Below are positions 13,393-42,436 of a DNA stretch of 64,000 nt, one piece after another (within the stretch, counting starts at the first letter, position 1; each line of letters opens with the position of its first letter). This DNA comes from Mucilaginibacter rubeus (GTDB taxonomy: Bacteria > Bacteroidota > Bacteroidia > Sphingobacteriales > Sphingobacteriaceae). The stretch spans positions 496,001 through 560,000 of the forward strand of contig NZ_BMKD01000002.1 in NCBI RefSeq assembly GCF_014643835.1, in the 5' to 3' direction. Position numbers and translations under genes: made by a program. The notes below the pieces were generated by a model. It was given only the letters and a program-made list of their open reading frames with translations, had not been told where the DNA came from and did not search any database.

Positions 13393-13395
13393 AAT

Positions 13396-18132: not shown

Positions 18133-18166
18133 AATACAGTTTTAAAGATACCTAAGAATAGCTGAC

Positions 18167-22826: not shown

Positions 22827-22832
22827 AAATTT

Positions 22833-26298: not shown

Positions 26299-26322
26299 CT
26301 GCCCAGCGCATTTAACATTAAC

Positions 26323-27492
26323 ATGAACATACAAGCCGCCCCTTTTTCAAAACCCGTTCTGTTTTTCATTATTCCGTCGCTTAGAGGCGGAGGAGCAGAA
26401 AGAGTTATCATTTCGCTTGCTAATTATTTTAATAAAAACAACTTCCAGTCGGTACTTATTTCTTTAAACAATGATGTTCCAGCATATGAAATTGATAATG
26501 ATGTTAAGGTATTTTACCTTGCTGACCGTCAAAAAAATTTGTTTGTTTACAGGTTGTATCATATTGCCGAAACTTTTTTTAAACTTATCAAGTTATTGCG
26601 GGCTCAAAAACCGGTGTGCGCTTTATCATTTATCACATCCGCCAATATTTGGACTGGTATTACCTGTTGGTTTACCCGGGTACCTTACATTGTTTCAGAG
26701 CGCACTTCGCCCGATAGAAGCGTTATCAGGTTTAACTATTTGCGTAAACAACTGGCTTTAAACTTATATAAAAGAGCCGAAGCGGTTGTAGTAAGTGCTA
26801 AAGGAGTTGAGGACTGCCTGCTTAAGGACAAAGACTTTAAAGTGCTAACAAACATCGAGCGCATAACAAATGCTGTTACTATTTTCCCATTACCGTCAGA
26901 GGAGAAGGTTCACCATCGGAGGTTTATTTTGGGAGTTGGCCGTTTGGCCTATGTAAAGGGCTTTGATATCCTTATTGAGGCCTATGCAAAATCAAGCCTT
27001 ACCGACGTCGATCTGATAATCGTTGGCGATGGCGAAGAACGTGCTAACCTCGTTTGCCAGATCTTTAATCTGGGGTTAAGAGAACGGGTATTGCTACCTG
27101 GAAGCAAAAACAACCTTCAGGATTATTACAACCAGGCCGAAATGTTTGTCTTACCATCGCGCAACGAGGGATACCCTAATGCTTTAGTTGAGGCTATGAG
27201 CTTTGGATGCCCTTCCATAGCAGTTGATTGCAATTTTGGACCTTCGGAGATCATCAACAACGGCCAAAATGGGATATTGGTAAAAAGAGGATCAATAAGT
27301 GATTTAGCCGATGCAATGCACCGTTTGGCCAACAATGAGGTTGTAAAAACAACTCTTGGAAATCAGGCCCGCGTCATATCTAAAACCAACCATCCTGATA
27401 AGATACTGGGAGAATGGGAAACGTTAATCAAAAAGCACGTCGCTGCAATTGCAACAGCGGCACAACTAACAAACAGCCAACCAGCTTTATAA
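26323..27492 (+). CDS. Glycosyltransferase family 4
   Basis: The product has 389 residues with a GT-B fold. The N-terminal half shows FFIIPSLRGGGAERVIISLA, a common GT4 opening. The C-terminal half has GVGRLAYVKGFDILIEAYA and the donor-site EX7E motif in NEGYPNALVEAMSFGCPSI. It builds one linkage of the EPS repeat unit. The gap to the GT2 gene is 24 bases and to the deacetylase-like gene 18 bases, all in one direction. Confidence 0.92.
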   Translation: MNIQAAPFSKPVLFFIIPSLRGGGAERVIISLANYFNKNNFQSVLISLNNDVPAYEIDNDVKVFYLADRQKNLFVYRLYHIAETFFKLIKLLRAQKPVCALSFITSANIWTGITCWFTRVPYIVSERTSPDRSVIRFNYLRKQLALNLYKRAEAVVVSAKGVEDCLLKDKDFKVLTNIERITNAVTIFPLPSEEKVHHRRFILGVGRLAYVKGFDILIEAYAKSSLTDVDLIIVGDGEERANLVCQIFNLGLRERVLLPGSKNNLQDYYNQAEMFVLPSRNEGYPNALVEAMSFGCPSIAVDCNFGPSEIINNGQNGILVKRGSISDLADAMHRLANNEVVKTTLGNQARVISKTNHPDKILGEWETLIKKHVAAIATAAQLTNSQPAL

Positions 27493-27510
27493 AACTATCA
27501 AACTGTTAAT

Positions 27511-28278
27511 ATGCTACAGTACTTAATTCGTTTGGATGATTTATGCCCGACAAATAACCTCCAAAAATGGCAACGTTTCTTCACCCTGTTTGACAAGTAT
27601 GGCATAAAACCCATAATTGCTGTTATACCGGCAAATAAAGACCCAAAGTTAAAAGCCTGCGGTAATTTCAATCCTTACTACTGGCAGTTGGTGCGCGAAC
27701 TTCAAAATCAAAATTATGTGATAGGCATGCACGGTTTTGATCATTATTACATAAATCACAACTCCGGCTTGCTGAAGATGAATAACCGGTCGGAATTTGC
27801 AGGCTTACCATTGCAAACACAAAAAGAAAAAATAAGAAAAGCAGCCCAAATTTTCAAACGTGAAAATATCAACCCCACTGTTTTTATTGCTCCTGCACAT
27901 ACTTTTGACCGTAATACATTGCTTGCTTTACACGAATACACCAACATTAAAATAATAAGTGACGGCCTGCTTAAGTCACCTTATGTAAGATTTGGCTTTA
28001 ATTGGGTACCTGTTCAACTATCAGAAGTTGAACAAAAAACAAAATACACCTGGACATTCAATTATCATCCCGAAACCTGTTCTGACAAAACGTTTGCTGA
28101 GCTTGAAATTTTCATAGAAAAAAACCATCACCTTTTTGTTTCATTGGATGACCTCGATTTTTCAAATTATACCTGGGCAGATGCCCTTGCCGAAAAATAT
28201 TGCATTTATAAACGATTAGCCCGTGATTATGCTCAAAAAGCAATCGCTTTTTTGGAACGGGTCCCTGCCGGAAACTAA
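27511..28278 (+). CDS. Polysaccharide-deacetylase-like protein (DUF2334 type)
   Basis: The product has 255 residues. It carries an N-terminal LIRLDDLCP (Asp9-Asp10) and a GMHGFDHYYINH His cluster, the arrangement of the DUF2334/NodB-like metal-dependent carbohydrate esterases. IAPAHTFD follows at mid length. No signal peptide is present, so it would act on a cytoplasmic substrate such as a nucleotide- or lipid-linked sugar, which is less usual than periplasmic deacetylation. N-deacetylation of an amino sugar in the repeat unit is a reasonable guess. Its end overlaps only the upstream extension of the next gene, not the start I favour. Confidence 0.7.
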   Translation: MLQYLIRLDDLCPTNNLQKWQRFFTLFDKYGIKPIIAVIPANKDPKLKACGNFNPYYWQLVRELQNQNYVIGMHGFDHYYINHNSGLLKMNNRSEFAGLPLQTQKEKIRKAAQIFKRENINPTVFIAPAHTFDRNTLLALHEYTNIKIISDGLLKSPYVRFGFNWVPVQLSEVEQKTKYTWTFNYHPETCSDKTFAELEIFIEKNHHLFVSLDDLDFSNYTWADALAEKYCIYKRLARDYAQKAIAFLERVPAGN

Positions 28279-28294
28279 CTCTATTAAACCTGAT

Positions 28295-29539
28295 ATGAAA
28301 ATTTCTTTTGCGCCACCTTACATTGACCAGGCTGTTATAAACGAGGTTATGGACACGCTTAATTCTGGCTGGATAACCACCGGGCCCAAAGTAGCCGCAC
28401 TTGAACAGCAAATGAAGCAGCTTACAGCTTCGGATGCAGCTGTTTGCGTAAACTCTTGGACATCAGGAGCTATCCTGATGCTGAAATGGTTCGGCATAAA
28501 GGAAGGCGACGAGGTTATCATACCAGCATACACCTATTGTGCTACCGCCTTAAGTGTAATGCATTGCGGGGCTACGCCGGTGATAGTTGATGTTGATGAC
28601 GACTGCTGCATCTCCACAGAAGCTGTGATTAAAGCAATAACTCCAAAAACAAAAGCAATTATTGCTGTTGACATAGCCGGCTGGCCATGCAACTACGAAG
28701 AATTAAAGGCGATTATCAATAAACCGGAAATTAAAAAATTATTCGTTGCTGAAAGCCCTAAGCAAAAGATTTTAGGCAGGATCCTCTTAATTGCCGATGC
28801 AGCGCACTCAATCGGTGCAACCATAAATGAATTGCCGGCAGCAAAGTATAGTGACGTATCGATATTTTCTTTTCACGCGGTAAAAAACATCACTACAGCC
28901 GAAGGAGGTTGTATCTGCATCAATTTACCTGCCCGCTTTAATTCGGCTGAAGAATACCGGTATTTAAAACTATATACTCTTAACGGCCAAACCAAAGATG
29001 CCTTCACCAAAAGTAATGGCGGCGGCTGGAAATACGATATTCTGTTTATGGGCCTCAAAATCAATATGCCCGACATTTGTGCCGCGATAGGCCTCGGCCA
29101 GCTCAGAAATTATGAGGCCAGCTTGCTCCCTATGCGCAAGCATGTTGCATCCGTATATTGTGACAGGTTCAAATCAATGGACTGGTTTGTTGAACCGCCA
29201 CTAAAAAACGAGCAAAGGGAATCATCCTACCACTTGTTTGCCCTGCGGGTCAAAGGCATATCAGAGACACAGCGTGACCAGATAATTGAAAGTATTATGG
29301 CTGAAGGGATCATGGCCAATGTACATTTTACCCCGCTGCCAATGCTTACTCTTTTTAAAGATCTGGGTTATAAGATCGCTCAGTATCCATCAGCTTATGC
29401 TCTTTACGCAAATGAAATCTCGCTGCCCATTTATCCTCAACTTACCGGCGAGCAGATTGATTTCATAATTACAACCGTCATAAACTCGGTTAACACTGTG
29501 CTGGATGAGTGTAAAGAACTTGCAAAAGTGGAATTATAA
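28295..29539 (+). CDS. DegT/DnrJ/EryC1-family sugar aminotransferase (second copy)
   Basis: The product has 414 residues from the ATG at 28295. An upstream in-frame ATG (28223) would add 24 residues inside the previous gene, and homologues begin at KISFAPPYIDQAVINEV. The PLP features are complete: IADAAHSIG, then FSFHAVKNITTAEGG with Lys197. Residues before the PLP site (VDVDDDCCISTEAV) fit the family. It differs clearly from the first DegT copy, so a second amino sugar is likely. It is followed 9 bases later by the phosphosugar transferase. Confidence 0.92.
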   Translation: MKISFAPPYIDQAVINEVMDTLNSGWITTGPKVAALEQQMKQLTASDAAVCVNSWTSGAILMLKWFGIKEGDEVIIPAYTYCATALSVMHCGATPVIVDVDDDCCISTEAVIKAITPKTKAIIAVDIAGWPCNYEELKAIINKPEIKKLFVAESPKQKILGRILLIADAAHSIGATINELPAAKYSDVSIFSFHAVKNITTAEGGCICINLPARFNSAEEYRYLKLYTLNGQTKDAFTKSNGGGWKYDILFMGLKINMPDICAAIGLGQLRNYEASLLPMRKHVASVYCDRFKSMDWFVEPPLKNEQRESSYHLFALRVKGISETQRDQIIESIMAEGIMANVHFTPLPMLTLFKDLGYKIAQYPSAYALYANEISLPIYPQLTGEQIDFIITTVINSVNTVLDECKELAKVEL

Positions 29540-29548
29540 AATAGAGTT

Positions 29549-30139
29549 ATGATTAAACGGCTTTTTGATATTGTCATATCACTTATAGCACTGATAATGT
29601 TGCTCCCATTGTTTATTTTAATTGCCATAGCTATTAAAATAAATTCGAGGGGAAGCGCATTTTATAAACAAACAAGGGTTGGGAAAGATGGAAATGAGTT
29701 TGAACTGTTCAAATTCCGGACCATGTACATAAACTCGGACAGGGCCGGATTATTAACCATAGGCAGTAAAGATTACCGGATCACCAGTGTTGGTTACTGG
29801 CTCAGGAAATATAAACTTGATGAACTGCCGCAATTACTAAACGTGTTAAAAGGTGACATGAGCTTTGTTGGCCCGCGCCCCGAAGTACGGAAATATGTAA
29901 ACCTGTATACACCTGCTCAACTAAGGGTATTAAGTGTTAAACCGGGAGTAACAGACTGGGCATCCATCAAATATTTTGATGAAAATGATATCCTGGCCGG
30001 CAGCGATGATCCTGAAGATATGTATATCAAGGTAATAGTTCCATCAAAGATCAGCAAGAATCTCGAATACATCGACAATCAGGATCTTTTCATGGATCTG
30101 AAGATAATACTATCTACAATAAAACGAATTTTTCAATAG
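29549..30139 (+). CDS. Undecaprenyl-phosphate phosphosugar transferase (PglC-like)
   Basis: The product has 196 residues, the short monotopic form without the four-helix N-terminus of WcaJ. One re-entrant hydrophobic helix (IVISLIALIMLLPLFILIAI) precedes the core: FYKQTRVGKDGNEFELFKFRTM, LDELPQLLNVLKGDMSFVGPRPE. It moves a phosphosugar from a UDP-sugar to undecaprenyl phosphate, starting the repeat unit. Small enzymes of this class often use UDP-diacetylbacillosamine or UDP-QuiNAc-type donors, which matches the dehydratase, aminotransferases and GNAT in this locus. Confidence 0.93.
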   Translation: MIKRLFDIVISLIALIMLLPLFILIAIAIKINSRGSAFYKQTRVGKDGNEFELFKFRTMYINSDRAGLLTIGSKDYRITSVGYWLRKYKLDELPQLLNVLKGDMSFVGPRPEVRKYVNLYTPAQLRVLSVKPGVTDWASIKYFDENDILAGSDDPEDMYIKVIVPSKISKNLEYIDNQDLFMDLKIILSTIKRIFQ

Positions 30140-30151
30140 TTCCACTTTATT

Positions 30152-31381
30152 ATGCTGCTTAAAAAGTGCCTCTTTTATGGTTTAATGCTCTTCTATCTGT
30201 ACACACTTGCTTTTAACATTTTCATGACAGATACTTTGAGGATTCCTGCGCCTGTAATTTTTTGCATGCTGCTATTCTTTGTGCAAAAACCTTTGCTGGA
30301 TTTCGGCTATACCAAGGAGTTAATAATTTTTTTAATCGGCGTTTTTTTATATCAGGTAGTAGGGATGAACAATTATGTTACCTTTTTTGCCATTCTCCTT
30401 ACTATAATACCATGTTCGTTATACTTCAACTATTTTGTTGGTGCAAATAAATCGCGCTATTACGCTTCAATATTAATGTTTTTCTTTCTGCTCATGTGCT
30501 CTATGATCATTATGGTACTTGATCACAGCATGGCAGGCACCATTGATCCGATCAGGAGCATGCTATTGGGCGAGCCGGTTAAACAAAGTCCAGCCGGCCT
30601 GGCAGTAACGCAATTCAACTTCGGGTACCAGGTTGTAGCCATTACCACGTTTGCCTTTATTGCATCATGCACTACCGGGCAATATCTTATAGTAAGAGCA
30701 TTGGTTTTAGCGGCCTGCATTGTTTGCATTTACCTTGGCATGAACAGGTCGGCATTTATAAGCTTTGGAGCCGGTGTAACGCTCTTCCTGTTTATTTACT
30801 ATCGCTATAGAGCCGTTTTCCTGGTTGCAGCTACAGTGATCATATGTTTTGGGTTGTACACTTATGTATTAAAAGATAACACTGATGACAAAAACAACAT
30901 CCTGTCAAAAAATCAGGCTAAAGAGGCAAATGATTTTAACAGGGCCGACATGGCTGCCGAAAACCTTAAAATATTTGCTGACTATCCTTTCGGACTTATA
31001 TTTTATGGTAAAACCTGGAACGACGTAACTTACCGGAACCCCTTGTTCACTTTCGGATTATCATCGCACAATGCCTACCTGATGTTTATTACCCTGCTTG
31101 GCCCGTTTTTGGGGCTGGGGTTACTATGGGCCATATATTACAAAACTGTCCGACTGTTTTGGCAAACTATAAAAAACGTAAAGCATAAAGGGAGTGCAAT
31201 TTATGTAGCTATATTTTTCACTTTTATAGCAATTTCATTAAACGCGCTGTCACATAACGGGTGGCTGATGAGCGTGGACGGCCCTACTATATTTATTTAT
31301 TTCGCCGTATTACACTACAACAGGTTAAAAGACCCTGTAAAACAAACCGAACCAGTGCAGGAAGAATTAGCTGTCGCTTAA
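30152..31381 (+). CDS. Wzy-like O-antigen/EPS polymerase
   Basis: The product has 409 residues with about ten membrane helices and one larger outside loop (around 245-300, rich in charged residues: DNTDDKNNILSKNQAKEAND). This topology, the lack of other motifs and the place between the phosphosugar transferase and a GT4 gene point to the O-antigen ligase/polymerase superfamily. SSHNAYLMFITLLGP is like the conserved H-N-x-Y stretch near the C-terminal half of WaaL/Wzy proteins. It is expected to join lipid-linked repeat units in the periplasm. Confidence 0.8.
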   Translation: MLLKKCLFYGLMLFYLYTLAFNIFMTDTLRIPAPVIFCMLLFFVQKPLLDFGYTKELIIFLIGVFLYQVVGMNNYVTFFAILLTIIPCSLYFNYFVGANKSRYYASILMFFFLLMCSMIIMVLDHSMAGTIDPIRSMLLGEPVKQSPAGLAVTQFNFGYQVVAITTFAFIASCTTGQYLIVRALVLAACIVCIYLGMNRSAFISFGAGVTLFLFIYYRYRAVFLVAATVIICFGLYTYVLKDNTDDKNNILSKNQAKEANDFNRADMAAENLKIFADYPFGLIFYGKTWNDVTYRNPLFTFGLSSHNAYLMFITLLGPFLGLGLLWAIYYKTVRLFWQTIKNVKHKGSAIYVAIFFTFIAISLNALSHNGWLMSVDGPTIFIYFAVLHYNRLKDPVKQTEPVQEELAVA

Positions 31382-31406
31382 AACTTGATCCAGATTTTTA
31401 TTTATA

Positions 31407-32468
31407 ATGAGAAAAAAGATTTTCCTTGTTCTTGGCTCGCTTGGCACAGGTGGTTCTGAGCGTGTTTACTGGCTGTTATCGCAATATTTCAACAAACCCG
31501 ATTATGAGGTAGTTGTAGTATTGCTTAATGGAGACGAGTGCAGTTTCTCAACAGAAATAGCAGGTATCAGATTTTTAAACCTGAAAACAATAAAGGCTTC
31601 ACGCTCATTTTTTAAACTTCGCAAACTGCTGAAAGATGAAAAACCATACGCTGTTTTTTCAACTACCGATCATATTAATATCCTGGTAGCCTTTGTTTCA
31701 ATGTTTGTTAAAGTGCCTAATTTAATAGCCAGGGCATCTAACAATCCGCAGCAAATGGCACAGTTTTATGGGTTTAAATCCCGTTTTTACAATTACTTTT
31801 CCAGGTTTTTGTTTGTACGCTTTAACTCAATAGTTTGCCAGTCGGAAGAAATGAAGCAATCCATTGCCCGGTTTTATAACATCAACCTAAACAAGCTTAT
31901 AGTTATTCATAACCCGGTTATTATAACGAATGCAATAAAACCTCAAAACCAAATTTCGGGACTAAAGAGGCTTATTGCAGTTAACCGGCTCATCAAAGAG
32001 AAAGGATTATTTCGCTTGCTTGAGGTTATGAAAGCACTGCCTCAAAACTATGTTCTAACTATAGCCGGCAAGGGCCCGCTGATGGATACCTTAAAAGCAG
32101 AGGTACAAAATATCGGCCTCAACGAACGCGTGAAGTTCATCGGCGAAATTAAAAATGTTGCCGATGTTATTTCTAAGCATGACTTACTGGTTTTAAGCTC
32201 ATTTACCGAAGGCTTCCCTAATGTAGTGCTCGAAGCACTGTCGGTAGGCGTTCCGGTAGTTACATTCAGAGTTGGCGGTGTTAACGAACTGATAAGGGAA
32301 GGCTTTAACGGTTTTATAGCCGAACAAAATGATCTTTGCACACTACGCCATCAAATTATCAGGGCATGCAATCAAACCTGGCAGCATCCTAATATCAAAG
32401 CCGATATCGTTGATCGCTTTAGTCTCGAGAAAATAGGCATGGAATATGAAACCCTGCTTGCTAATTAA
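31407..32468 (+). CDS. Glycosyltransferase family 4
   Basis: The product has 353 residues with a GT-B fold. The opening FLVLGSLGTGGSERVYWLLSQ and the C-terminal donor-site segment SSFTEGFPNVVLEALSVGVP (EX7E) define GT4. IAVNRLIKEKGLFRLLEV is the start of the C-terminal domain. It is the second of four GT4 enzymes in the locus. Donor and acceptor are unknown. Confidence 0.92.
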   Translation: MRKKIFLVLGSLGTGGSERVYWLLSQYFNKPDYEVVVVLLNGDECSFSTEIAGIRFLNLKTIKASRSFFKLRKLLKDEKPYAVFSTTDHINILVAFVSMFVKVPNLIARASNNPQQMAQFYGFKSRFYNYFSRFLFVRFNSIVCQSEEMKQSIARFYNINLNKLIVIHNPVIITNAIKPQNQISGLKRLIAVNRLIKEKGLFRLLEVMKALPQNYVLTIAGKGPLMDTLKAEVQNIGLNERVKFIGEIKNVADVISKHDLLVLSSFTEGFPNVVLEALSVGVPVVTFRVGGVNELIREGFNGFIAEQNDLCTLRHQIIRACNQTWQHPNIKADIVDRFSLEKIGMEYETLLAN

Positions 32469-32498
32469 ACAAAACTATTAACCCCTTAGCGTTTTTTT

Positions 32499-34340
32499 AT
32501 GTGCGGCATTTACGGATCAACAGTGAGATATGACGATAACATCATATTTCAAAAACTGGCAAGGGCCGATTTCAGGGGGCCCGATTATTCTGGCTTTGAA
32601 CACAATGGTCCGGTTACCCTGGGCCATAACCGGCTGGCTATTGTTGATCTGGACCACCGGTCAGATCAGCCCTTAACTTACAATCACCTTAAAGTTGTAT
32701 TTAATGGCGAAATCTACAACTATAAAACCTTAAAGGTAAAGCTCACAGCCCTGGGTTACAGATTCCTGACCGATTCCGATACAGAGGTTATTACAGCCGC
32801 CTATCTTGAATACGGCGAAAACTGTGTCAACCATTTCAACGGGATGTTTGCCTTTGTAATTTTTGACACCCGTACGCTCCAGCTTTTTGGCGCCCGCGAC
32901 AGGCTTGGCAAAAAGCCGTTTTATTATACCCAAAATGGTTTAGATTTTGAATTTGCCAGCCAGCCATCGCAAATATGTATAGGCCGGAATGTAACTATCA
33001 ATGAACAGGCTATTAACGAATATTTTGTATGGGGATACGTTCCCGAACCCAAATCGGCCTGGAACGAAATCCAAAAGCTTGAGGCCGGGCATTCATTTTG
33101 TTTTGATTGCAACACCGGCAGTTTCAGAAAAAGAAAATACTGGGAACTGGACTTAAACCATGCCGAACGCTATGAAGGAGCATATCAGCAAGCACAGGCC
33201 GATTTAACCCGGCTGATTACCAACGCTGTTGATATACGCATGCATGCCGATGTGCCCCTTGGAGTATACCTTTCAGGCGGTATCGACTCATCACTTGTTG
33301 CGGCTATAGCTTCAAAAAACTATGATAATGTAAAAACCTTTTGCATAAAATTCAGAGAAAAAGGTTTTGATGAAAGCGTTTTTGCACAAAAAATTGCCGA
33401 TCATTTAAAAACAGATCATCATACAATTGAATGTAATAAAGAAGAAGGCATTGAACTAATTGAGAGTTTCGGCCGCTATTATGATGAGCCTTTTGCCGAT
33501 TCAAGCGCCATCCCATCCCTGCTGTTAAGTAAACACACCAAAAAACACGTTACCGTGGTTTTAAGCGGTGATGGCGGCGACGAAAGCTTTTTAGGATACA
33601 GCCGTTATAAATGGTTTAATATGGTTAACCAGCTGTTTAAATGCCCGCTGGCGCTGCGTAAAAAAATAGCCGATCTAATTAGCATCTCCCCTAACTATCG
33701 TCATAAACTAATTGCAATGGGGATCTGCAATCCGGAGGTCAAATCACTTTACGGGCTTATGCTGGGCGGCCTGGAATACTCCTGGCTCGAAAATCCTAAC
33801 ATTGGCCTGCAGGTTCCCTTCATGGATATCTGGTCGTCAAAATCAACAAGCATGCTTCAAAAGCTGTCGGCATTTGATACCAAGACCTATTTAAACGGTG
33901 ATATAAATACTAAGGTTGACAGGGGCACAATGGCCTTTTCGTTAGAAGCAAGGGCGCCGCTTATGGATTACCGGGTAATTGCATTTGCGCAAACCTTGCC
34001 CGACAGCTATAAATTTAAATACGGCATTCAAAAAAGGATTTTGAAAGATATACTATACCAATATGCGCCGGCGCAACTGTTTGACAGGCCAAAATCCGGC
34101 TTTACAATGCCGCTAAGCCATTGGTTTAAAAACGAACTGAGAGATCACGTGATGGATCATCTTTCAATCAGCGAGCTAAAGAACATCCCCGGTATTAACG
34201 TACAAAAATCATTTGCTATGATAAACGATCACATGAGCGGCAAATGGAACAGGGCAACCCAGATCTGGAAACTGCTTGTGTATACACAATGGCTTAAAGA
34301 TCAGCGTTCAAAAGCAATTTCAACATACCAGGTAGCTTAA
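32499..34340 (+). CDS. AsnB-like glutamine-dependent amidotransferase
   Basis: The product has 613 residues, the standard length of asparagine synthetase B. Cys2 (MCGIYGS) is the glutaminase nucleophile. The synthase part shows the PP-loop VYLSGGIDSSLVAAIAS and VVLSGDGGDESFLGYSRYKW. Such genes inside O-antigen and capsule loci often do not make asparagine but amidate sugar carboxylates (WbpS/WbmI-like) to give uronamides. With a nucleotide-sugar dehydrogenase and a glucuronate epimerase in the same locus, that role is more likely here. It remains an inference, as sequence alone does not separate the two activities. Confidence 0.88.
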   Translation: MCGIYGSTVRYDDNIIFQKLARADFRGPDYSGFEHNGPVTLGHNRLAIVDLDHRSDQPLTYNHLKVVFNGEIYNYKTLKVKLTALGYRFLTDSDTEVITAAYLEYGENCVNHFNGMFAFVIFDTRTLQLFGARDRLGKKPFYYTQNGLDFEFASQPSQICIGRNVTINEQAINEYFVWGYVPEPKSAWNEIQKLEAGHSFCFDCNTGSFRKRKYWELDLNHAERYEGAYQQAQADLTRLITNAVDIRMHADVPLGVYLSGGIDSSLVAAIASKNYDNVKTFCIKFREKGFDESVFAQKIADHLKTDHHTIECNKEEGIELIESFGRYYDEPFADSSAIPSLLLSKHTKKHVTVVLSGDGGDESFLGYSRYKWFNMVNQLFKCPLALRKKIADLISISPNYRHKLIAMGICNPEVKSLYGLMLGGLEYSWLENPNIGLQVPFMDIWSSKSTSMLQKLSAFDTKTYLNGDINTKVDRGTMAFSLEARAPLMDYRVIAFAQTLPDSYKFKYGIQKRILKDILYQYAPAQLFDRPKSGFTMPLSHWFKNELRDHVMDHLSISELKNIPGINVQKSFAMINDHMSGKWNRATQIWKLLVYTQWLKDQRSKAISTYQVA

Positions 34341-34354
34341 AACATTCTAACCTT

Positions 34355-35086
34355 ATGATCCAGATTAACAACAGGGCTATGCGTATAGTACCATACACAG
34401 TTGTGTGGTTTGCCGCTAAGCCCAATTTATGGGGTTGCCTGTTAAAATACTATAAACAAAGTAAAAGCAGCGAAACTGTTCCGGGATATCGTAAAGAGGA
34501 TTTTTTTACAAAAATAATTGATATAACCGTACCTGTACCTGCTATTGAAGCCAATTTTGACAAAAACACAACATACGAAATACGCAGGGCCCTTAAAGAT
34601 GGCGTATCAACCGTGATGGGTACCGGCATTAAACCCTTTATTGACTTTTACAATGCATTTGCAGTTACCAAGGGCCTAAAAAAAATCAATAAAGAATTTT
34701 ATAAATACAAACCGCACCTGTTTATCTCCAAAGCGGTTTACCAGGACCAGGATATTGTTATGCACGCTTACATCCGCGATCATTCATCGCAAAGAGTAAG
34801 ATTATTGCATTCGGCTTCCCTGTTCAGAAATGAAAATGACAGCCAGTTAAGAGCTGTCACAGGCCGGGCAAACCGCTTGCTGCATTTTGAAGATATCCGC
34901 TTTTTTAAACAGCTTGGGTTTAAAATATATGATTTGGGCGGCTATGCTTACAATACATCGGATGCCGAACTTTTAAAGATCAACAAATTCAAAGATAGTT
35001 TTGGTGGAAGCCTGCTGCAGGAAACCGATTATCTGCCTATATCACTAACGCTCCTGTCATTTTTAAAAAAAACATTTCGATTATGA
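34355..35086 (+). CDS. FemAB/GNAT-like acyltransferase
   Basis: The product has 243 residues and no membrane segment or signal. The C-terminal half carries the FemAB-type GNAT pattern: LRAVTGRANRLLHFEDIRFFKQLG, then IYDLGGYA and a closing FKDSFGG. The N-terminal half is weakly conserved (TTYEIRRALKDGV). Such proteins in polysaccharide loci (BcsL/CelD-like) move acyl or amino-acyl groups to amino sugars. A second FemAB-like gene lies at 42463. Its stop overlaps the next start as ATGA, so this protein and the GINT1-like one are probably made together. Confidence 0.65.
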   Translation: MIQINNRAMRIVPYTVVWFAAKPNLWGCLLKYYKQSKSSETVPGYRKEDFFTKIIDITVPVPAIEANFDKNTTYEIRRALKDGVSTVMGTGIKPFIDFYNAFAVTKGLKKINKEFYKYKPHLFISKAVYQDQDIVMHAYIRDHSSQRVRLLHSASLFRNENDSQLRAVTGRANRLLHFEDIRFFKQLGFKIYDLGGYAYNTSDAELLKINKFKDSFGGSLLQETDYLPISLTLLSFLKKTFRL

Positions 35087-36000
35087 AAGACCTTATCTCC
35101 TCATTCATTTCATTTATTCACAGAGTGTTTAGTTATGACAAATGGAATATAGGTTATATATCACAATCTCCAGAAAACCTTATCCACACTCAGCAGCTAA
35201 ACGGAAAAATCAATTGGTTATCAGAAGATAAGGCGGATTATACGGCCGATCCTTTTACTGCAAATATCAACGGCCGTTTACATCTCTATTATGAAGAGCT
35301 TAATTTTTGGAAGGGAAAAGGCGAAATCATGATGACGGATAACATGCATTTCAAAAATAAGAAAAAAGTAAATGGCATCATGGAAGACGAAATACACCTC
35401 TCTTATCCTCACATGTTCACTGATAGTAACCGGCTATACTGTATTCCGGAAACAGGCAGAGCTAAACAGGTGGCTCTTTATCAAATTGATATGAACAACC
35501 CTTATAAGTTTGAAAAGATTAGGGTATTGCTGGAAGGCCAGGCATTTGTTGACAGTTCTATTATCCATTATAACAACAAATATTGGCTCTTTACAAGTGT
35601 TTCGGGTGAACAGGGTGTACTGTACTTATTTTATGCCGACACACTCGACGCTCCATTTAAGGCACATAAACAAAACCCGATAAATGTGGCGTCAAACGTG
35701 AGCCGGTCGGCAGGGAGGCTATTTGTAGTTGGGCAAAAACTTTATATGCCCAGCCAAAACCCTAAAAGGTGTTATGGAGGCTCGGTAATGATCAATGAAA
35801 TAACCACTATAACCGAAACAGATTTTCAATACCATACTGCTTTTGAACTACTTCCCCAGGCACCTTATGACGAAGGGTTGCATACTATAAATTTTGAAGA
35901 TGGATTGTTGATTGTTGATGGAAAACGCAAAGTATTGAGTGCAATGGGCCCCTTTAAAAAAGTGATCAGGAAACTGAAGACCCTTAATAACGCTAACTAA
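35083..36000 (+). CDS. GINT1-N-like beta-propeller protein of polysaccharide loci
   Basis: The product has 305 residues. The pattern ADYTADPFTANINGRLHLYYEE, then HLSYPHMF and CIPETGRAKQVALYQ, HYNNKYWLFTS, SRSAGRLF matches proteins annotated as the N-terminal domain of glucosamine inositolphosphorylceramide transferase 1. The repeated strand pattern suggests a five-bladed GH43-like propeller. No glycoside-hydrolase catalytic set can be assigned with confidence. Bacterial copies occur in EPS and O-antigen clusters with unknown role, possibly transfer or formylation. It overlaps the FemAB-like gene by 4 bases upstream and the GT4 gene by 1 base downstream (TAATG). Confidence 0.65.
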   Translation: MKDLISSFISFIHRVFSYDKWNIGYISQSPENLIHTQQLNGKINWLSEDKADYTADPFTANINGRLHLYYEELNFWKGKGEIMMTDNMHFKNKKKVNGIMEDEIHLSYPHMFTDSNRLYCIPETGRAKQVALYQIDMNNPYKFEKIRVLLEGQAFVDSSIIHYNNKYWLFTSVSGEQGVLYLFYADTLDAPFKAHKQNPINVASNVSRSAGRLFVVGQKLYMPSQNPKRCYGGSVMINEITTITETDFQYHTAFELLPQAPYDEGLHTINFEDGLLIVDGKRKVLSAMGPFKKVIRKLKTLNNAN

Positions 36001-37070
36001 TGCCCAAGATGAAGCCTAAATTACTTTTTGTTTCAATTACCAACAAGGCAAACGGCGCCGAGAACATACTGCTACAAGCCGCCCGTGCGAGTAACGCTTC
36101 TCTGCTATTTTTAAAGAAAGTTGAAAGCGGCGGGTTAAATATTCCCATCGATCAACAAGTGGAATATGTGAGCAACGGAAGCATATTAAGTGGCTTTTCA
36201 AGGTTAATAAAAAGCTTAAGCCCTTACCGCACAGATCATATTATTTTTAGTACACATCCTTACTTAAATGCTTTCCTGGGTTTTTTAAAGCGCATTGGAT
36301 ATTTAAAATCAAAACTCATAGTAAGGGAATGCTCTTCTGTTTTAACCCGGTACAGCGGTTTAAAAAAATTGAGTTACCAGATAGCATATTGGCTTGGCTA
36401 CCCCGGGGTAAATTTGGTTGTATGCCAAACCAACAGCATGCGGGATAGCTTTGTACAGCATCTCCCATACATCGACAAGCGAAGGGTTATCATTCAGAAA
36501 AACCCGATCGATATTGAACAAAACCTAATAAAGGCCGAAGAAGCACTGCCCGCTGCCGATGCCACTGCTGAATTTATTTGCGCAGCCGGGCGGCTGATTC
36601 CTGAAAAGGGTTTTGATATACTAATTATCGCTTTTGATGAAATTAAAGCTTCCCAGCCCCATTTGCAGCTCCTGATATTTGGCGAAGGCCCCGAGCAAGC
36701 TTCGCTTCAGAAACTGATCAGTGAATTAAAATTGGAAGGCCGGGTAGTATTAAAAGGGTGGGTCGCAAACCCAATGCCTTATTTTAAGCATGCAAAAGCC
36801 TGCGTTATATCATCAATAAAAGAGGGCTTTCCGAACGTATTGTTGCAAATGATGATCCTGAACCCTGTTGTAATCAGCACCAATTGCGCGGGAGGTATCG
36901 ATGAGATCCCGGGCATTTACCTGGCTGAAGCCGATAATGTAAACTCGTTAACAACAACGGTAAACACCGCCCTCAGCACTAATAGCAATCATAAAGACCT
37001 TATAATGCAATACGTAGAAGACCGCACCCCCGAAATATTCATCAAGTCGATACTGAATGCACTGGTATAA
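36000..37070 (+). CDS. Glycosyltransferase family 4
   Basis: The product has 356 residues. It starts one base inside the previous stop (TAATG). The N-terminus is a weak GT4 opening (LLFVSITNKANGAENILLQAA), and the C-terminal half is clear: CAAGRLIPEKGFDILIIAFDE and SSIKEGFPNVLLQMMILNP. In the last motif the usual final Glu of EX7E is Gln (E-G-F-P-N-V-L-L-Q), a change seen in some GT4 members but worth noting. It is the last gene of the tight block 20975-37070. Confidence 0.88.
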   Translation: MPKMKPKLLFVSITNKANGAENILLQAARASNASLLFLKKVESGGLNIPIDQQVEYVSNGSILSGFSRLIKSLSPYRTDHIIFSTHPYLNAFLGFLKRIGYLKSKLIVRECSSVLTRYSGLKKLSYQIAYWLGYPGVNLVVCQTNSMRDSFVQHLPYIDKRRVIIQKNPIDIEQNLIKAEEALPAADATAEFICAAGRLIPEKGFDILIIAFDEIKASQPHLQLLIFGEGPEQASLQKLISELKLEGRVVLKGWVANPMPYFKHAKACVISSIKEGFPNVLLQMMILNPVVISTNCAGGIDEIPGIYLAEADNVNSLTTTVNTALSTNSNHKDLIMQYVEDRTPEIFIKSILNALV

Positions 37071-37129
37071 ACAGCCCCTGACTTATACATAGTAGCGCAA
37101 CAACTTTAACTAACTAAAATAAAATTTTT

Positions 37130-37576
37130 ATGAAAACAATTATTAAATCCACCCGAAATGTTGTGTTGCCTATAATAACAATTGTAGCCATGCTATCTGC
37201 TATTAACGGCTGTAAAAAAGCCGACCAGCCAACACCAACTCCAACACCGCCTACAACTACTCCTCCGGTTACAACACCACAGGACGAATCTATCAAATCG
37301 ATAAGCTTGATAGGGTTGAGAGTAGATAGCGGCTTTTGTTACAAAATTGGCTATGATTTACCTGAAATTGGGGATTCAAACACCTCTCCAACTGTTTCAA
37401 AGCTCAGGCTGTTTGAAAATGGCGTTGAACTGGGGCCGGCCCACTCTACCCACCATGATATCCGCAGTTTTGGACTGGGACAATTTAGCCATTGGGGCAA
37501 CACATTGTATTTCTCAACGTCGGACAATAGTAATCCACTTACAAACGGGAGAAAATACACTTATACCATGAAGTAA
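37130..37576 (+). CDS. Small lipoprotein made of the module shared with the pectate-lyase-like protein
   Basis: The product has 148 residues. A lipoprotein signal ends at Cys28 (SAINGC), followed by a Pro/Thr spacer (34-50) and one module (about 56-147). The module matches residues 58-145 of the lyase at 10899: LRVDSGF / IRLDQGY, GDSNTSPTVSKLRLFENGVE, LGPAHSTHHDIRSFG, FSHWGNTLYFSTSDNSNP, LTNGRKYTYTMK. Roughly two thirds of positions are the same. It has conserved His, Trp, Asp and Asn and no obvious enzyme motif, which suggests a carbohydrate-binding or EPS-anchoring function. I do not recognise the family by name. It lies 59 bases after the GT4 gene and before a hairpin. Confidence 0.8.
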   Translation: MKTIIKSTRNVVLPIITIVAMLSAINGCKKADQPTPTPTPPTTTPPVTTPQDESIKSISLIGLRVDSGFCYKIGYDLPEIGDSNTSPTVSKLRLFENGVELGPAHSTHHDIRSFGLGQFSHWGNTLYFSTSDNSNPLTNGRKYTYTMK

Positions 37577-37578
37577 GA

Positions 37579-37616
37579 TTTATCAAATCACACTCAAACG
37601 CGCGCAATTTGATAAA
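37579..37616 (+). terminator. Hairpin just after the module lipoprotein gene
   Basis: TTTATCAAAT (37579-37588) and ATTTGATAAA (37607-37616) pair perfectly, 2 bases past the stop codon, with an 18-base loop. There is no T run, so it may be a weak terminator or an mRNA-end stabiliser. A second small hairpin, TAAGCG-TTCG-CGCTTA, lies at 37709-37724 in the gap before the epimerase. Confidence 0.4.
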
Positions 37617-37786
37617 CTCCTTACTCAAAAGTATTCTGCAACAAGTACATCTACCTCCTTTTTCGTTACCATTCCTGATTCTTTTTCATACAGGCATTTA
37701 CAATTAGTTAAGCGTTCGCGCTTATAATCAACCAATAATCAACGCCTTTCTCTAAGGCTTTCATTTAAACCTAATTTCACTTATTT

Positions 37787-38872
37787 ATGAAAATTTTAAT
37801 TACCGGCACTGCGGGATTTATCGGCTATCATTTAACCCAAAAATTACTTAAACGCGGTGACACCGTTGTAGGCATTGATAATATTAACGATTACTACGAT
37901 GTAAAGCTAAAGCACGCCCGATTGCTGGATGCCGGCATAAAAGTATCAGGAATGGTTTATAACAAACCTGTTTGCAGCACAAAACATCCAAACTATACGT
38001 TTATAAAACTGGATATAACGGATAAAGAAAATCTGCAGCAGCAATTCCAAAACTATCAGTTTGATGCCGTTTGTAACTTGGCCGCACAGGCCGGTGTACG
38101 CTACAGTCTTACTAATCCTGATGTTTATATTGACACAAACGTAAAAGGATTTTTAAACATCCTGGAATGCTGCAGGCATTTCAAGATTAATCACCTTGTT
38201 TACGCCAGTTCATCAAGCGTTTACGGTTTAAACAAAAAAATGCCCTTCAGCGAGCATAATATTGCCGACCATCCGGTTTCATTATACGCAGCATCAAAAA
38301 AAGCCAATGAAATGATGGCCCATACCTACAGCCATTTATTTAATCTGCGAACTACGGGGTTACGTTTTTTTACAGTTTACGGGCCGTGGGGCCGGCCGGA
38401 CATGGCTTTATTTATTTTTACCAAAGCAATTCTGGAGGGGAGGCCTATTGAAGTTTTTAACAACGGCAATATGCTTCGCGATTTTACCTACGTAGATGAC
38501 ATTGTTGAAGGCATTACACATGTTATTGATCAACCGGCTGAGACCAATTTTCTGTGGGATGCCAAAGATCCCGATCCGGCTACATCATCTGCACCTTTCA
38601 GGGTGTTTAACATTGGCAGAGGAGCACCGGTTAACCTACTTGATTTTGTAAGCGAAATTGAGGCACAGGTGAACAAAAAAGCAATCAAAACACTAATGCC
38701 GATGCAGGATGGCGACGTTGCCGAAACCTGTGCTGATGTTTCAAATTTAGATGAAATGCTGAACTACAAGCCCCAGGTTTCTGTCCATACAGGGGTTGAG
38801 CGATTTATTGCATGGTATAAAAAATATTACCATATTAAAAGCACCAGCCCTGAGCCGGTCCTTGTTCACTAA
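37787..38872 (+). CDS. UDP-glucuronate 4-epimerase-like SDR protein
   Basis: The product has 361 residues, an extended short-chain dehydrogenase. MKILITGTAGFIGYHL is the NAD-binding start and NINDYYDVKLKHARL is the segment typical of UDP-glucuronate 4-epimerases. The catalytic YxxxK is in SLYAASKKANE, preceded by YASSSSVYG. It would turn UDP-GlcA into UDP-GalA, or the N-acetyl equivalents. A GalA-type residue in the EPS would be the natural target for the pectate-lyase-like lipoprotein. It begins a second cluster of the locus after a 210-base gap that contains two hairpins. Confidence 0.9.
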   Translation: MKILITGTAGFIGYHLTQKLLKRGDTVVGIDNINDYYDVKLKHARLLDAGIKVSGMVYNKPVCSTKHPNYTFIKLDITDKENLQQQFQNYQFDAVCNLAAQAGVRYSLTNPDVYIDTNVKGFLNILECCRHFKINHLVYASSSSVYGLNKKMPFSEHNIADHPVSLYAASKKANEMMAHTYSHLFNLRTTGLRFFTVYGPWGRPDMALFIFTKAILEGRPIEVFNNGNMLRDFTYVDDIVEGITHVIDQPAETNFLWDAKDPDPATSSAPFRVFNIGRGAPVNLLDFVSEIEAQVNKKAIKTLMPMQDGDVAETCADVSNLDEMLNYKPQVSVHTGVERFIAWYKKYYHIKSTSPEPVLVH

Positions 38873-38965
38873 AATACATCCCCGATAACAGTGCATTGTC
38901 TTTGACCAGCATTACATCCCCAATTAAATCCTCGCTCATAATAACCTATTGCTTATTATACCATC

Positions 38966-40096
38966 ATGGCAAGCAAAAAAGTGCTGATCGCCTGCGATTC
39001 GGCCAAATCGTTGATTGATTTTAGAGGTAAATTAGTTGAGCTGATGCGGAGAGAACATACTGTTTATGCTTTTATCCCTGCGATACCGCCCGAGCAACGC
39101 GCAAGACTGGCATTGTTAAACATCGTTTTATTTGAAAATAATCTAAACGGAAGTAATGTATCGATCTTATCTGATCTGAAATATGCGTTGAAACTTTACC
39201 GGCTCATCAAACAGCTAAAGCCGGATGTTTTTTTTCCATACACCCTTAAACCGGTTATATATGGAACACTTGCAGCCAAACTGGGCGGCGTGCGAAAAAT
39301 AACCCCAATGCTTTCGGGCCTTGGTTATAACTTTGTTAGCGGTAACACATCTTTAACAAGCAAAATTACCCGCTTCCTGCTTAGGTTCAGCCTTAAAAAC
39401 AGGCAGGGGTTGTCTGTCATATTTCAAAATAAAGATGATGTACAAACTCTGCTTGATTCTAAAATAATATCAGCAAAACATCAAACCGCAGTAGTTAACG
39501 GATCGGGAGTAGACTTGAGCTACTATACCCCTACCCGGCCGGACATTAATAACATAAGCTTTATCATGGTATCCAGGCTAATCAATGCCAAAGGGATCCG
39601 CGAATATTTTGAAGCAGCGCAAATTGTATTCCTAAAGCATCCGCAGGTAACGTTCAAGCTAATCGGATCCTATGATGATAATGTTGACGCCATTCACCCC
39701 GACTTATTTTCGGAGATAAAGCACCGGAGTGTAATTAACTACCTGGGTGCCGTTGATGATGTAAGACCATATATAAGCAGTTCGTCTGTTGTGGTACTGC
39801 CTTCATACTATCGGGAGGGAATTCCACGGTGTTTACTTGAAGCCATGGCTATGGCGCGTGCCATTATAACCTGCGATTCTGTTGGTTGCAGGGAAACTGT
39901 TGATGCGTCACCCAACAGCAATGGATTTTTAATACCCGTAAAAAACACAGCCGAACTTGTGCACAAGATGGAGTATTTCATAACCAACAAGGAAGCTATC
40001 AGCAGTTTCGGGCTTAACGGACTGGCCTTGGCAAAGGAAAAATTTGATGTGCATAAAGTAAATGCTATGATGATGCAGATTATGGACCTGAATTAA
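38966..40096 (+). CDS. Glycosyltransferase family 4
   Basis: The product has 376 residues. It resembles the GT4 branch next to phosphosugar transferases in Bacteroidota loci: KPDVFFPYTLKPVIYG, MLSGLGYNFVSG, VVNGSGVDLSYYTPT, FIMVSRLINAKGIREYFEAA, and the EX7E site in REGIPRCLLEAMAMARAII. Members of this branch commonly add the second sugar to the lipid carrier. The 93-base gap upstream has no clear signal. Confidence 0.9.
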   Translation: MASKKVLIACDSAKSLIDFRGKLVELMRREHTVYAFIPAIPPEQRARLALLNIVLFENNLNGSNVSILSDLKYALKLYRLIKQLKPDVFFPYTLKPVIYGTLAAKLGGVRKITPMLSGLGYNFVSGNTSLTSKITRFLLRFSLKNRQGLSVIFQNKDDVQTLLDSKIISAKHQTAVVNGSGVDLSYYTPTRPDINNISFIMVSRLINAKGIREYFEAAQIVFLKHPQVTFKLIGSYDDNVDAIHPDLFSEIKHRSVINYLGAVDDVRPYISSSSVVVLPSYYREGIPRCLLEAMAMARAIITCDSVGCRETVDASPNSNGFLIPVKNTAELVHKMEYFITNKEAISSFGLNGLALAKEKFDVHKVNAMMMQIMDLN

Positions 40097-40123
40097 TTAG
40101 CCGAAAATCAACAATACAAATTC

Positions 40124-40927
40124 ATGAGAAATAGACTTAACTACGGAGACAGGCATTTTGAAGATTTCCGCGTTGCGATGCGTGATTACGGATGGGTTAT
40201 TTTTGAGAATGCATTAGACAGCGATTTTGTTGCAGTTATTAATGAGGATTTAAAGGAAGCGTACGTAAAACGACGGGCCATTCAGGAAAAAAATGGGATA
40301 AGCTCTAACATGGCCGGCACACTTCATCACCTTGTTGAAAAGGACAATTTCAGCTTGCCGTTTATTGAAAAAATGTATTGTGCCGATGAAATAGCTTATT
40401 TTTTGAGTGGTAATTATATACTGAATGGTTTTAATGCTGTAATACACACCCAGCAGCAACATCCTTATGTAAGTAACATGCACCGTGATGTGCGCACATT
40501 TTTAGGCGATACGAAATTATTAGTGCAAATGATAGTTACCCTTGATGATTTTACCGCAGAAAACGGTGCTACCTATTTTCTGTCGGGCTCACATAAAACA
40601 GATATCAAACCTAACGAAAATTATTTCTACGAAACCGCCGAAAGGGCTGTAACACCAAAAGGAAGCATCATCCTTTTCGACTCCAACATATGGCATGCTG
40701 CCGGAGAAAACAAAACAATTAAGCAACGCCGGGCATTAACACTGGGATTCACCCGCCCTTTTATTAAACCACAAATGGACTACCCAAGGGTATTAGGTTA
40801 CGACTTTATTGATAAGCTTAGCTCTGATCAGCGGCAGGTATTGGGTTACAATTCACGTATCCCGGAAAGCCTGGAAGAATATTATCAACCCATTCATTTA
40901 AGAATGTATAAAAGCGACCAGGGATAA
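40124..40927 (+). CDS. PhyH-family Fe(II)/2-oxoglutarate dioxygenase
   Basis: The product has 267 residues, the usual size of phytanoyl-CoA-dioxygenase-like proteins. The iron facial triad is visible as His120-x-Asp122 (NMHRDVRTFLGD) and distal His191 (SNIWHAAGENKT), and the 2-oxoglutarate Arg fits QRRALTLGF. The enzyme should hydroxylate or otherwise oxidise a small substrate in the cytoplasm. PhyH genes occur now and then in LPS and EPS loci with unproven substrates; a modified sugar or acyl group is likely. It lies 28 bases after GT4 and 32 before the aminotransferase-like gene. Confidence 0.88.
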   Translation: MRNRLNYGDRHFEDFRVAMRDYGWVIFENALDSDFVAVINEDLKEAYVKRRAIQEKNGISSNMAGTLHHLVEKDNFSLPFIEKMYCADEIAYFLSGNYILNGFNAVIHTQQQHPYVSNMHRDVRTFLGDTKLLVQMIVTLDDFTAENGATYFLSGSHKTDIKPNENYFYETAERAVTPKGSIILFDSNIWHAAGENKTIKQRRALTLGFTRPFIKPQMDYPRVLGYDFIDKLSSDQRQVLGYNSRIPESLEEYYQPIHLRMYKSDQG

Positions 40928-40958
40928 CAACTTTATTTTTCACACTCAATTTACAGTC

Positions 40959-41933
40959 ATGCAAAAAAATAAAGCCGCGTTAAAACCGATAGGCGGGTAT
41001 TTGGAGCTGGAACTGCCCAAAGGGAATGAATACTATCCCGATTTGGTTAGGTTAAACACAGGACGTAATGCGTTAGAATACATATTGATACAAAAAAAAT
41101 ATCATAAAATTTATATTCCTTATTTCACCTGCGATGTACTGCTTGAACCAATTGCACGAACAGGTATTCAATACCAGTTTTATCATGTTGACCGGCAGTT
41201 AGATCCCATCATCGATTTTGAGATTGAGCCTGACGCTTGTTTTTTATATACCAATTACTTTGGCATAAAACAAACAAAAGCATTAGAGCTTAGCGGCAAA
41301 ATCAAAAATCTTATAATTGATAATTCGCAAGCCTTTTTTTCAGAGCCCCTTGCCGGCATTGATACATTTTACTCGTGCCGTAAGTTTTTTGGCGTTCCAG
41401 ACGGCGCATACTTAAGCATTAAAAGAAAACTTACTAAAAAGTTGCCCGTAGATAGCTCAGTAAACCGATTTTCGCACCTTATAAAAAGTATAGACGCAGG
41501 TATAGAAGCCGGGTATTCTGACTATATAAACAACAGCAAGGATCTGGAAAACAACGAGATCAGGTCCATGTCGTTATTGACCCGAAAGATACTTACAAGC
41601 ATCAATTACAACGAATGTGTATTTGCAAGGCAACGAAACTTTAATTTTTTGCATAAGCACCTTGCTGAATTTAACCTGCTCAAGTTTGATGCCGCTGATG
41701 AGCACACAGTACCGTTGGTATACCCTTTTTTAACTAATGACCGGCACTTAAAAGTACATCTGATCCAGAAAAAAATATATGTTGCTACCTACTGGCCTAA
41801 TGTATTTAAGTGGACTAAGAAAAACACCAACGAAAATTATCTGGCCCGGTGCTTAGTGCCATTACCAATTGATCAACGGTATGACCTTCAGGATATGTTT
41901 TATATGTTAAATACGCTAAGACTTTTTTTATGA
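40959..41933 (+). CDS. Diverged PLP-aminotransferase-fold (DegT-like) protein
   Basis: The product has 324 residues, shorter than the two true DegT enzymes here (391 and 414). The fold features remain: LNTGRNALEYIL, IYIPYFTCDVLL, IIDNSQAFF (Asp121, the pyridine-nitrogen position) and CRKFFGVPDGAYL (Lys142, the Schiff-base position). The small size and low similarity suggest an altered sugar or amino-acid substrate. The next gene starts inside its stop (ATGA), so it may work directly with that GNAT, for example making and then acylating an amino group. Confidence 0.7.
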   Translation: MQKNKAALKPIGGYLELELPKGNEYYPDLVRLNTGRNALEYILIQKKYHKIYIPYFTCDVLLEPIARTGIQYQFYHVDRQLDPIIDFEIEPDACFLYTNYFGIKQTKALELSGKIKNLIIDNSQAFFSEPLAGIDTFYSCRKFFGVPDGAYLSIKRKLTKKLPVDSSVNRFSHLIKSIDAGIEAGYSDYINNSKDLENNEIRSMSLLTRKILTSINYNECVFARQRNFNFLHKHLAEFNLLKFDAADEHTVPLVYPFLTNDRHLKVHLIQKKIYVATYWPNVFKWTKKNTNENYLARCLVPLPIDQRYDLQDMFYMLNTLRLFL

Positions 41934-42436
41934 CCATTTCAGTTTACATACGCCCCCTTGTAATAGAAGATGCGTCCGTATCTTACGCATGGCGTAACGA
42001 CCCATTGATATGGGTATATACAGGCTACAAACCCACTCATTATATTAGTTCGGAAATAGAAACAGCCTGGTTACGTGAAAAGCTGGCCAAGCCCGATCAG
42101 CTTAGATTTGCAATTTGTGTTAAAGAACTTAATACATATATAGGGAATATACAACTGCTCGATATTACTGATCATGACGCAGAACTGCACCTGTTTATTG
42201 GTAACAAACTTTACTGGGGTAAAGGAATTGGTTACCAGGCAACAGTGCAGATGATACGATATGGCTTTTTAATAAAGGAACTGGATGAGATTTATTTAAA
42301 GGTACACCCTGCAAATATCGCGGCAATCACTGTTTATGAAAAGGCCGGATTTGAAATTACAGGTAAGGTAAATGATTTGATTACAATGAGTATTACCAAA
42401 AGTAAATTTGTTTGCCTTCAAAATCAACAATCATAA
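41930..42436 (+). CDS. GNAT N-acetyltransferase
   Basis: The product has 168 residues, one GNAT domain of the RimJ/PseH-like group: YIRPLVIEDASVSYAWRNDP, LHLFIGNKLYWGKGIGYQA (acetyl-CoA loop) and VHPANIAAITVYEKAGF. It probably acetylates the amino group made by one of the aminotransferases, giving an N-acetylated dideoxy sugar. It overlaps the aminotransferase-like gene as ATGA. The start and length are well supported. Confidence 0.88.
   Translation: MTISVYIRPLVIEDASVSYAWRNDPLIWVYTGYKPTHYISSEIETAWLREKLAKPDQLRFAICVKELNTYIGNIQLLDITDHDAELHLFIGNKLYWGKGIGYQATVQMIRYGFLIKELDEIYLKVHPANIAAITVYEKAGFEITGKVNDLITMSITKSKFVCLQNQQS

Follow-up and report, generated by a model that had tools for sequence, protein, structure and literature searches.

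A 64,000-nucleotide stretch of Mucilaginibacter rubeus DNA (contig NZ_BMKD01000002.1, forward strand, positions 496,001 to 560,000; called the window in the following) encodes a small lipoprotein and a polysaccharide lyase family 1 (PL1)-type lyase that carry homologous copies of one module. This module is a candidate new polysaccharide-binding module, and is probably one because it is found on a lipoprotein of an exopolysaccharide (EPS) cluster and on a lyase, and is elsewhere fused to proteins of sugar-polymer assembly or cleavage. The preferred reading, to which we assign a probability of roughly 0.6, is a domain that recognizes carbohydrate, perhaps uronate-type polymers (like galacturonic acid, GalA, or N-acetylgalactosaminuronic acid, GalNAcA), and belongs to a family without a name; the EPS system of this genus would have two copies of it, one on a lyase and one on a tethering lipoprotein. 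The two genes are laid out as follows:

37130..37576, + strand: standalone module lipoprotein, 148 amino acids (signal with Cys28, Pro/Thr-rich linker, module)
37130..37213, + strand: signal region with likely lipobox Cys28, from the sequence and orthologue translations
37214..37291, + strand: Pro/Thr-rich linker from Cys28 to the module, differing in length and composition among orthologues
37292..37573, + strand: lipoprotein module, 94 amino acids as modelled
10899..12311, + strand: PL1-type lyase with N-terminal module, 470 amino acids (PF00544, E 3e-27)
11055..11333, + strand: lyase module
11340..11414, + strand: Thr/Ser-rich linker of the lyase, residues 148–172, predicted local distance difference test (pLDDT) below 50
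11415..12308, + strand: beta-helix PL1-type domain of the lyase, with WIDH and R359-x-P361 conserved

Both open reading frames were found where the sequence-only reading had put them, and every near-identical block that it had quoted is present in both proteins. The two modules, each of about 88 residues, are 59% identical; a single BLASTP comparison of the whole proteins gave 46% identity over 146 amino acids, signal region included (E 2e-36). Nine residues (E96, G117, S131, D132, N133, P136, N139, G140 and Y143) were invariant in all 72 rows of the module alignment, six of them within loop 129–142, while H105, H121 and R141 were conserved in 67, 68 and 67 rows, respectively. The module has a short, well-conserved signature, FSxSDNSDPxTNGRxY. 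The lipoprotein module is under purifying selection, with a ratio of nonsynonymous to synonymous substitution rates (dN/dS) of 0.013–0.137 in seven of 12 pairwise comparisons, dS being saturated in the other five. The lipoprotein is therefore not decaying in the window's clade.

The predicted structure of the lipoprotein module had a mean pLDDT of 95.4 and a predicted template modelling score of 0.87; together with the low pLDDT of the lyase linker, this predicts a discrete, independently folding domain on disordered linkers. In the lyase, an N-terminal signal with Cys26 is followed by a low-complexity stretch, the module, the second, Thr/Ser-rich linker and the PF00544 domain. Cys26 is conserved in 23 of 23 aligned lyases and is likely a lipid anchor. 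In the lipoprotein, Cys28 was assigned by the lipobox rule, for which the Asn at −2 is a non-ideal residue.

The lipoprotein gene has these surroundings:

17368..42436, + strand: EPS cluster; 15 proteins scanned against families, other names from sequence
37787..38872, + strand: NAD-dependent epimerase/dehydratase, directly 3′ of the lipoprotein gene; precedes the lyase in sister genomes

The cluster encodes an export protein, Wzc, an UpxY antiterminator, a TviB-like dehydrogenase, Wzx, aminotransferases, a sugar transferase, Wzy, glycosyltransferases, AsnB, the epimerase and PhyH. As the sequence-only reading had it, the lipoprotein gene lies inside the operon, between EPS-cluster genes at 36000–37070 and 37787–38872, and the lyase gene lies before it, ending about 5 kb ahead of the export gene at 17368.

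To what extent the module follows EPS genes was assessed in 251 genomes from the family of G001, the nearest genome used for the window's strain. The module was found in 32 of these, in all 32 on a PL1 lyase. A wide scan found 276 relatives, and the best-scoring of these made up 77 distinct loci, 69 from Sphingobacteriaceae and eight from elsewhere; some genomes contribute two of the 69, a lipoprotein locus and a lyase locus. Counting homologues of the window's EPS-cluster proteins within 10 kb, 59 of the 69 loci had at least four (median 12). The same family provided a control: at E 1e-15 there were 49 PF00544 matches in 41 genomes, 34 with the module and 15 without it by comparison of positions, and only two of the 14 loci of the 15 module-less lyases had at least four EPS matches (Fisher p 4.6e-7, ignoring relatedness and two-locus genomes). 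These two were L198 and L199, the latter of which also holds a module lyase of the same operon. The module-less lyase of L198 (genome G010), in an EPS-like locus, is 41% identical to the window lyase, which shows that a lyase of this kind can do without the module.

As to gene order, the module lyase had the epimerase before it and a glycosyltransferase family 4 (GT4) gene after it, counting detected genes, in all 43 loci from outside Mucilaginibacter (Pedobacter, Sphingobacterium, Arcticibacter, Daejeonella and Desertivirga; contig ends leave two one-sided) and in 11 Mucilaginibacter loci. In all 15 Mucilaginibacter standalone loci, as in the window, the standalone copy lies between the GT4 gene, before it, and the epimerase, after it. 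The operon's PhyH gene (E 1e-60) was present in 29 of the 251 genomes, all 29 of which have the module, versus three of the 222 PhyH-negative genomes (p 6e-35, ignoring relatedness of genomes); a further PhyH match, outside the operon, was seen in five of these 29. The lyase–PhyH distance, taken in 15 genomes, was 2.0–3.5 kb in 12 of them; it reached 11.9 kb in G109, and both G001 and G235 had 28.8 kb. Two Desertivirga loci (L076 and L093) have tandem module lyases in the EPS operon, one of the L076 lyases with two modules. The tie between the module and EPS gene clusters is thus firm in Sphingobacteriaceae; elsewhere it is unproven.

The position of the window lyase outside the operon was traced in a tree of 107 modules, which had few columns and many weak forks. 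Its module falls in a 10-row clade (99/87) that contains no in-operon lyase, and two metagenome-assembled genomes hold both kinds of lyase (RYN_310, with L039 and L071, and 341R, with L037 and L070). We therefore rejected relocation of the in-operon lyase upstream as the origin of the window lyase, which by the tree is a paralogue. On the same grounds, the window's clade appears to have lost the in-operon lyase; its operon keeps the lipoprotein, and another lyase stands at the cluster's head. Two species have that lyase on a different scaffold (L034/L047 and L035/L048). The standalone modules form a main clade of 13 rows (100/99) and a second of three rows (100/100), both nested, with weak support, between modules of in-operon lyases from their own genus. 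At 9938–10294 of L046 (Mucilaginibacter sp. SP1R1), the standalone module frame lacks an ATG and has a signal-like piece upstream, so that the gene is possibly broken there.

Next to the window lyase lies a pair of genes whose names come from sequence:

12409..14826, − strand: SGNH-like protein and MBOAT acyltransferase, adjoining the lyase

Such genes also adjoin the lyase in seven loci (L045, L047, L048, L049, L051, L054 and L084), and seven of the nine clade relatives of the window lyase have them alongside, L070 and L071 showing neither. The pair perhaps serves O-acylation of the EPS.

The lyase has the PF00544 domain and the WIDH and Arg-x-Pro motifs of PL1 pectate lyases. It lacks the canonical acidic calcium ligands of the YYDGLLD motif, which some module lyases, such as that of L062, keep: its DYWGKDIGV aligns with DYYDGLLDI of PDB entry 7bbv, Gly replacing the Asp pair. 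We therefore do not claim canonical pectate lyase activity for it; with WIDH and Arg-x-Pro retained, the enzyme may have a substrate other than plain pectate, or an altered activity. It matches VexL (PDB 6fi2) at E 5e-20.

Outside the family, the module is sparse. It was found in two of 395 genomes sampled from the window's phylum, G001 among them, and, counting the seed genome each time, in 1 of 398 in the phylum round G637, 3 of 80 round G636, 1 of 101 round G638 and 6 of 61 round G639, the richest remote sample being the phylum of the Armatimonadetes seed (6/61). When 34 remote host proteins were scanned in Pfam (two weak matches, L123 and L150, were left out of the counts, as were L113, L114 and L116, near-copies of L112 and L115, and L122, cut by a contig end), nine were of pectin-lyase type: one Pel9A-like (L083), two Pec_lyase (L103 and L155) and six PcRGLX (L152, L154, L157, L158, L159 and L166). 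Two had Beta_helix domains (L099), and five had PKD, CBM6/35, LamG or Ig-type domains (L104, L151, L153, L156 and L161, those in L104 and L161 only below curated cut-offs). The others with a match were GDSL esterases (L124 and L163), methyltransferases on phage contigs (L112 and L115), a radical SAM protein with SPASM (L162), a protein that has TPR repeats and matches GH127 weakly (L160), and a Chloroflexi protein with an ABC_tran ATPase, the module and Wzt_C in that order (L107). The module is N-terminal in some hosts, C-terminal in others and sometimes doubled. Judging by the Pfam domains of the lyase and the remote hosts, it is part of carbohydrate-active enzymes.

Several of these loci have features of their own. 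L107 adjoins a permease-like gene, AsnB and glycosyltransferases (names partly from sequence), giving it the appearance of an O-antigen export locus. On the L112 phage contig, the methyltransferase with C-terminal module (6603–7520) adjoins, on the opposite strand, what we read as a tail-spike-like protein (7427–9175); L113 and L114 contain copies, and L115 a relative. L053 of Nitrospira defluvii (9383–11455) encodes two near-identical modules and then a region that we read as propeller-like, without a Pfam match, next to secretion-type genes. In L163, from the phylum of the Nitrospirota seed, the GDSL–module gene has an MBOAT gene some 1.5 kb away that shares 38% identity with that of the window, an arrangement that echoes the lyase–SGNH–MBOAT neighborhood. 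A plasmid search gave one module match, a GDSL protein of Solidesulfovibrio, and INPHARED phage records gave none. Foldseek against viral models (BFVD) returned five matches (A0A3G5ADE5, A0A3G5A2W3, A0A3G5AAL9, A0A3G5AEI9 and A0A3G5A4X5; E 4.3e-9 or better, 38–42% identity), all from the giant viruses Hyperionvirus or Harvfovirus. Four have database labels of glycan-type or related enzymes, namely galacturonosyltransferase 6-like protein (42% identity), radical SAM protein, methyltransferase and glutamine amidotransferase, and the fifth is uncharacterized.

The sequence-only reading had recognized no enzyme motif and no named family in the module, which the searches bear out. No family in Pfam, NCBIfam or PHROGs covers it, and no enzyme family was matched in the Pfam and NCBIfam scans. 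NCBIfam gave only weak matches, located at the signal and linker or close to them, the best with E 0.015. In Pfam, 24 modules gave five single-member matches (E 0.08–0.28), which we read as chance; none of the five, at E up to 1, was to a carbohydrate-binding module (CBM) family, presence of the CBM77 model in the library being unconfirmed. A PDB sequence search gave a single match (E 6.1), which fell in the signal and linker; the module profile gave none, and neither did Foldseek of the module against PDB at E 0.001. Nor did titles and abstract openings of the papers listed in searches for such modules, lyases or hosts yield a description. The module looks like a CBM, and membership in that class would hinge on binding.

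A close comparison is that with CBMs of pectin lyases (CAZy CBM class; CBM77, for example, binds pectin). Like these, the module is a small, discrete, beta-rich domain, joined to a pectin-type lyase by a low-complexity linker and sometimes doubled; unlike them, it has no Pfam family, its binding is putative, and it is also the sole domain of a lipoprotein and part of proteins that assemble glycans. The C-terminal carbohydrate-binding domain of Wzt (PF14524) offers a second parallel, in that the module lies between the ATPase and Wzt_C in one likely O-antigen exporter from Chloroflexi, but PF14524 is a separate family, and that protein has both. VexL, which we take to be the Vi-antigen lyase of a GalNAcA capsule locus, resembles the window lyase as a PL1-type enzyme; the match is confined to the catalytic domain, however, and the PDB searches with the module did not retrieve VexL.

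As to the ligand, the pointers to a uronate-containing EPS are indirect and weak: the TviB-like dehydrogenase, the occurrence of the module on hosts of pectin type, the viral protein labeled galacturonosyltransferase 6-like and the match of the lyase to VexL. The TviB-like UDP-sugar dehydrogenase (21483–22826) scored 585.8 bits against an NCBIfam cut-off of 592, a hint of a sugar of the N-acetylglucosaminuronic acid (GlcNAcA) or GalNAcA type. The product of 37787..38872 may be a UDP-uronate epimerase.

If the preferred reading is right, the lyase module would hold the lipid-anchored PL1-type lyase on the EPS via its flexible linker, and the enzyme would trim chains, or release them, from the same polymer that its module holds; in other EPS systems, lyases (AlgL, for example) have a cutting or trimming role. 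The lipoprotein would display the module on a flexible tether and keep EPS at the cell surface. On cytoplasmic hosts, the module might recognize nascent glycan. A wider proposal, which we regard as tentative and clearly less probable, is that of a module that recognizes uronans and is employed at either side of the membrane by enzymes that build, amidate, methylate, export and cut acidic glycans, in several phyla, phages and giant viruses, with an EPS-tethering lipoprotein in Sphingobacteriaceae.

A number of observations weigh against carbohydrate recognition. Fewer than four EPS matches were found in 10 of the 69 module loci: none in L045, L047, L048, L070 and L071, three each in L049, L051, L054 and L084, at the head of an EPS cluster, and two in L063, on a short contig. 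The locus tally leans to Sphingobacteriaceae because the 77 loci are the best-scoring of the 276 relatives. The window's cluster proteins were searched for in 36 remote loci (L104 left out, many loci short), of which 28 had no homologue of a cluster gene other than module and lyase; homologues were present in eight (L053, L099, L107, L124, L162, L163, L164 and L165), AsnB-like in three, GT4-like in three, others in one or two. Outside Sphingobacteriaceae, the EPS tie is for this reason unproven, and it is the domains fused to the module that connect it with polysaccharides. Eleven of the 34 remote hosts (L053, L097, L106, L111, L117–L121, L164 and L165) had no Pfam match, and some hosts look cytoplasmic, where a role as EPS tether makes no sense. 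The epimerase fell below every NCBIfam cut-off, dTDP-glucose 4,6-dehydratase scoring best and TviC lower, and its best PDB match is likewise labeled dTDP-glucose 4,6-dehydratase, the next "epimerase domain-containing protein". Structure searches for a lectin or CBM fold gave no confident match. The polysaccharide-unit interpretation of the sequence-only reading is thus partly supported: the tie to EPS loci holds within the family and is unproven for remote loci, and the fusions to pectin-lyase-type and other glycan enzymes that it had anticipated were found, while the lectin-like fold it had anticipated got no confident match.

The diversity of hosts, secreted and cytoplasmic-looking and of differing chemistry, would also suit a protein–protein docking unit, one that brings glycan enzymes together at a common partner in the EPS machinery without touching sugar, and the small lipoprotein could be such a partner at the membrane. 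Hosts across several phyla and viruses would then need one and the same partner, but no cluster-gene homologue recurs widely in the 36 remote loci, other types of partner not having been searched for; we consider docking unlikely. Slightly less likely still is an accessory part of a catalytic cleft, as with the Ig-like domain of the GH120 beta-xylosidase XylC (PDB 3vst). That domain, 9% identical to the module, is inserted in the glycosidase and not tethered by a linker, whereas about 25 residues of pLDDT below 50 separate module and lyase, and the module is N- or C-terminal depending on host and also exists alone.

The conserved residues could themselves form an active site. In a small enzyme or metal-binding domain, E96, H105, H121, D132, N133, N139 and R141 would make up a catalytic or calcium site, in line with the nine invariant positions, their concentration in loop 129–142 and the well-kept H105, H121 and R141. 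A conserved ligand site explains the same pattern, however, and with no enzyme family matched we give this little credence, a shade below the cleft proposal. The placement of the standalone clades among in-operon lyase modules and the L046 frame without ATG could be taken to mean that the lipoprotein is a functionless leftover of a duplicated lyase; given the low dN/dS wherever it was measurable and the same slot kept in 15 loci, this is very improbable.

If the module does bind polysaccharide, these results would add a binding-module family, marked by a short conserved signature, that is absent from the domain libraries searched, and the module would be a candidate probe for acidic polysaccharides. 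They describe a conserved EPS operon with its own dedicated lyase in Mucilaginibacter, Pedobacter and Sphingobacterium, and the retention and trimming of EPS in this group would become directly testable.
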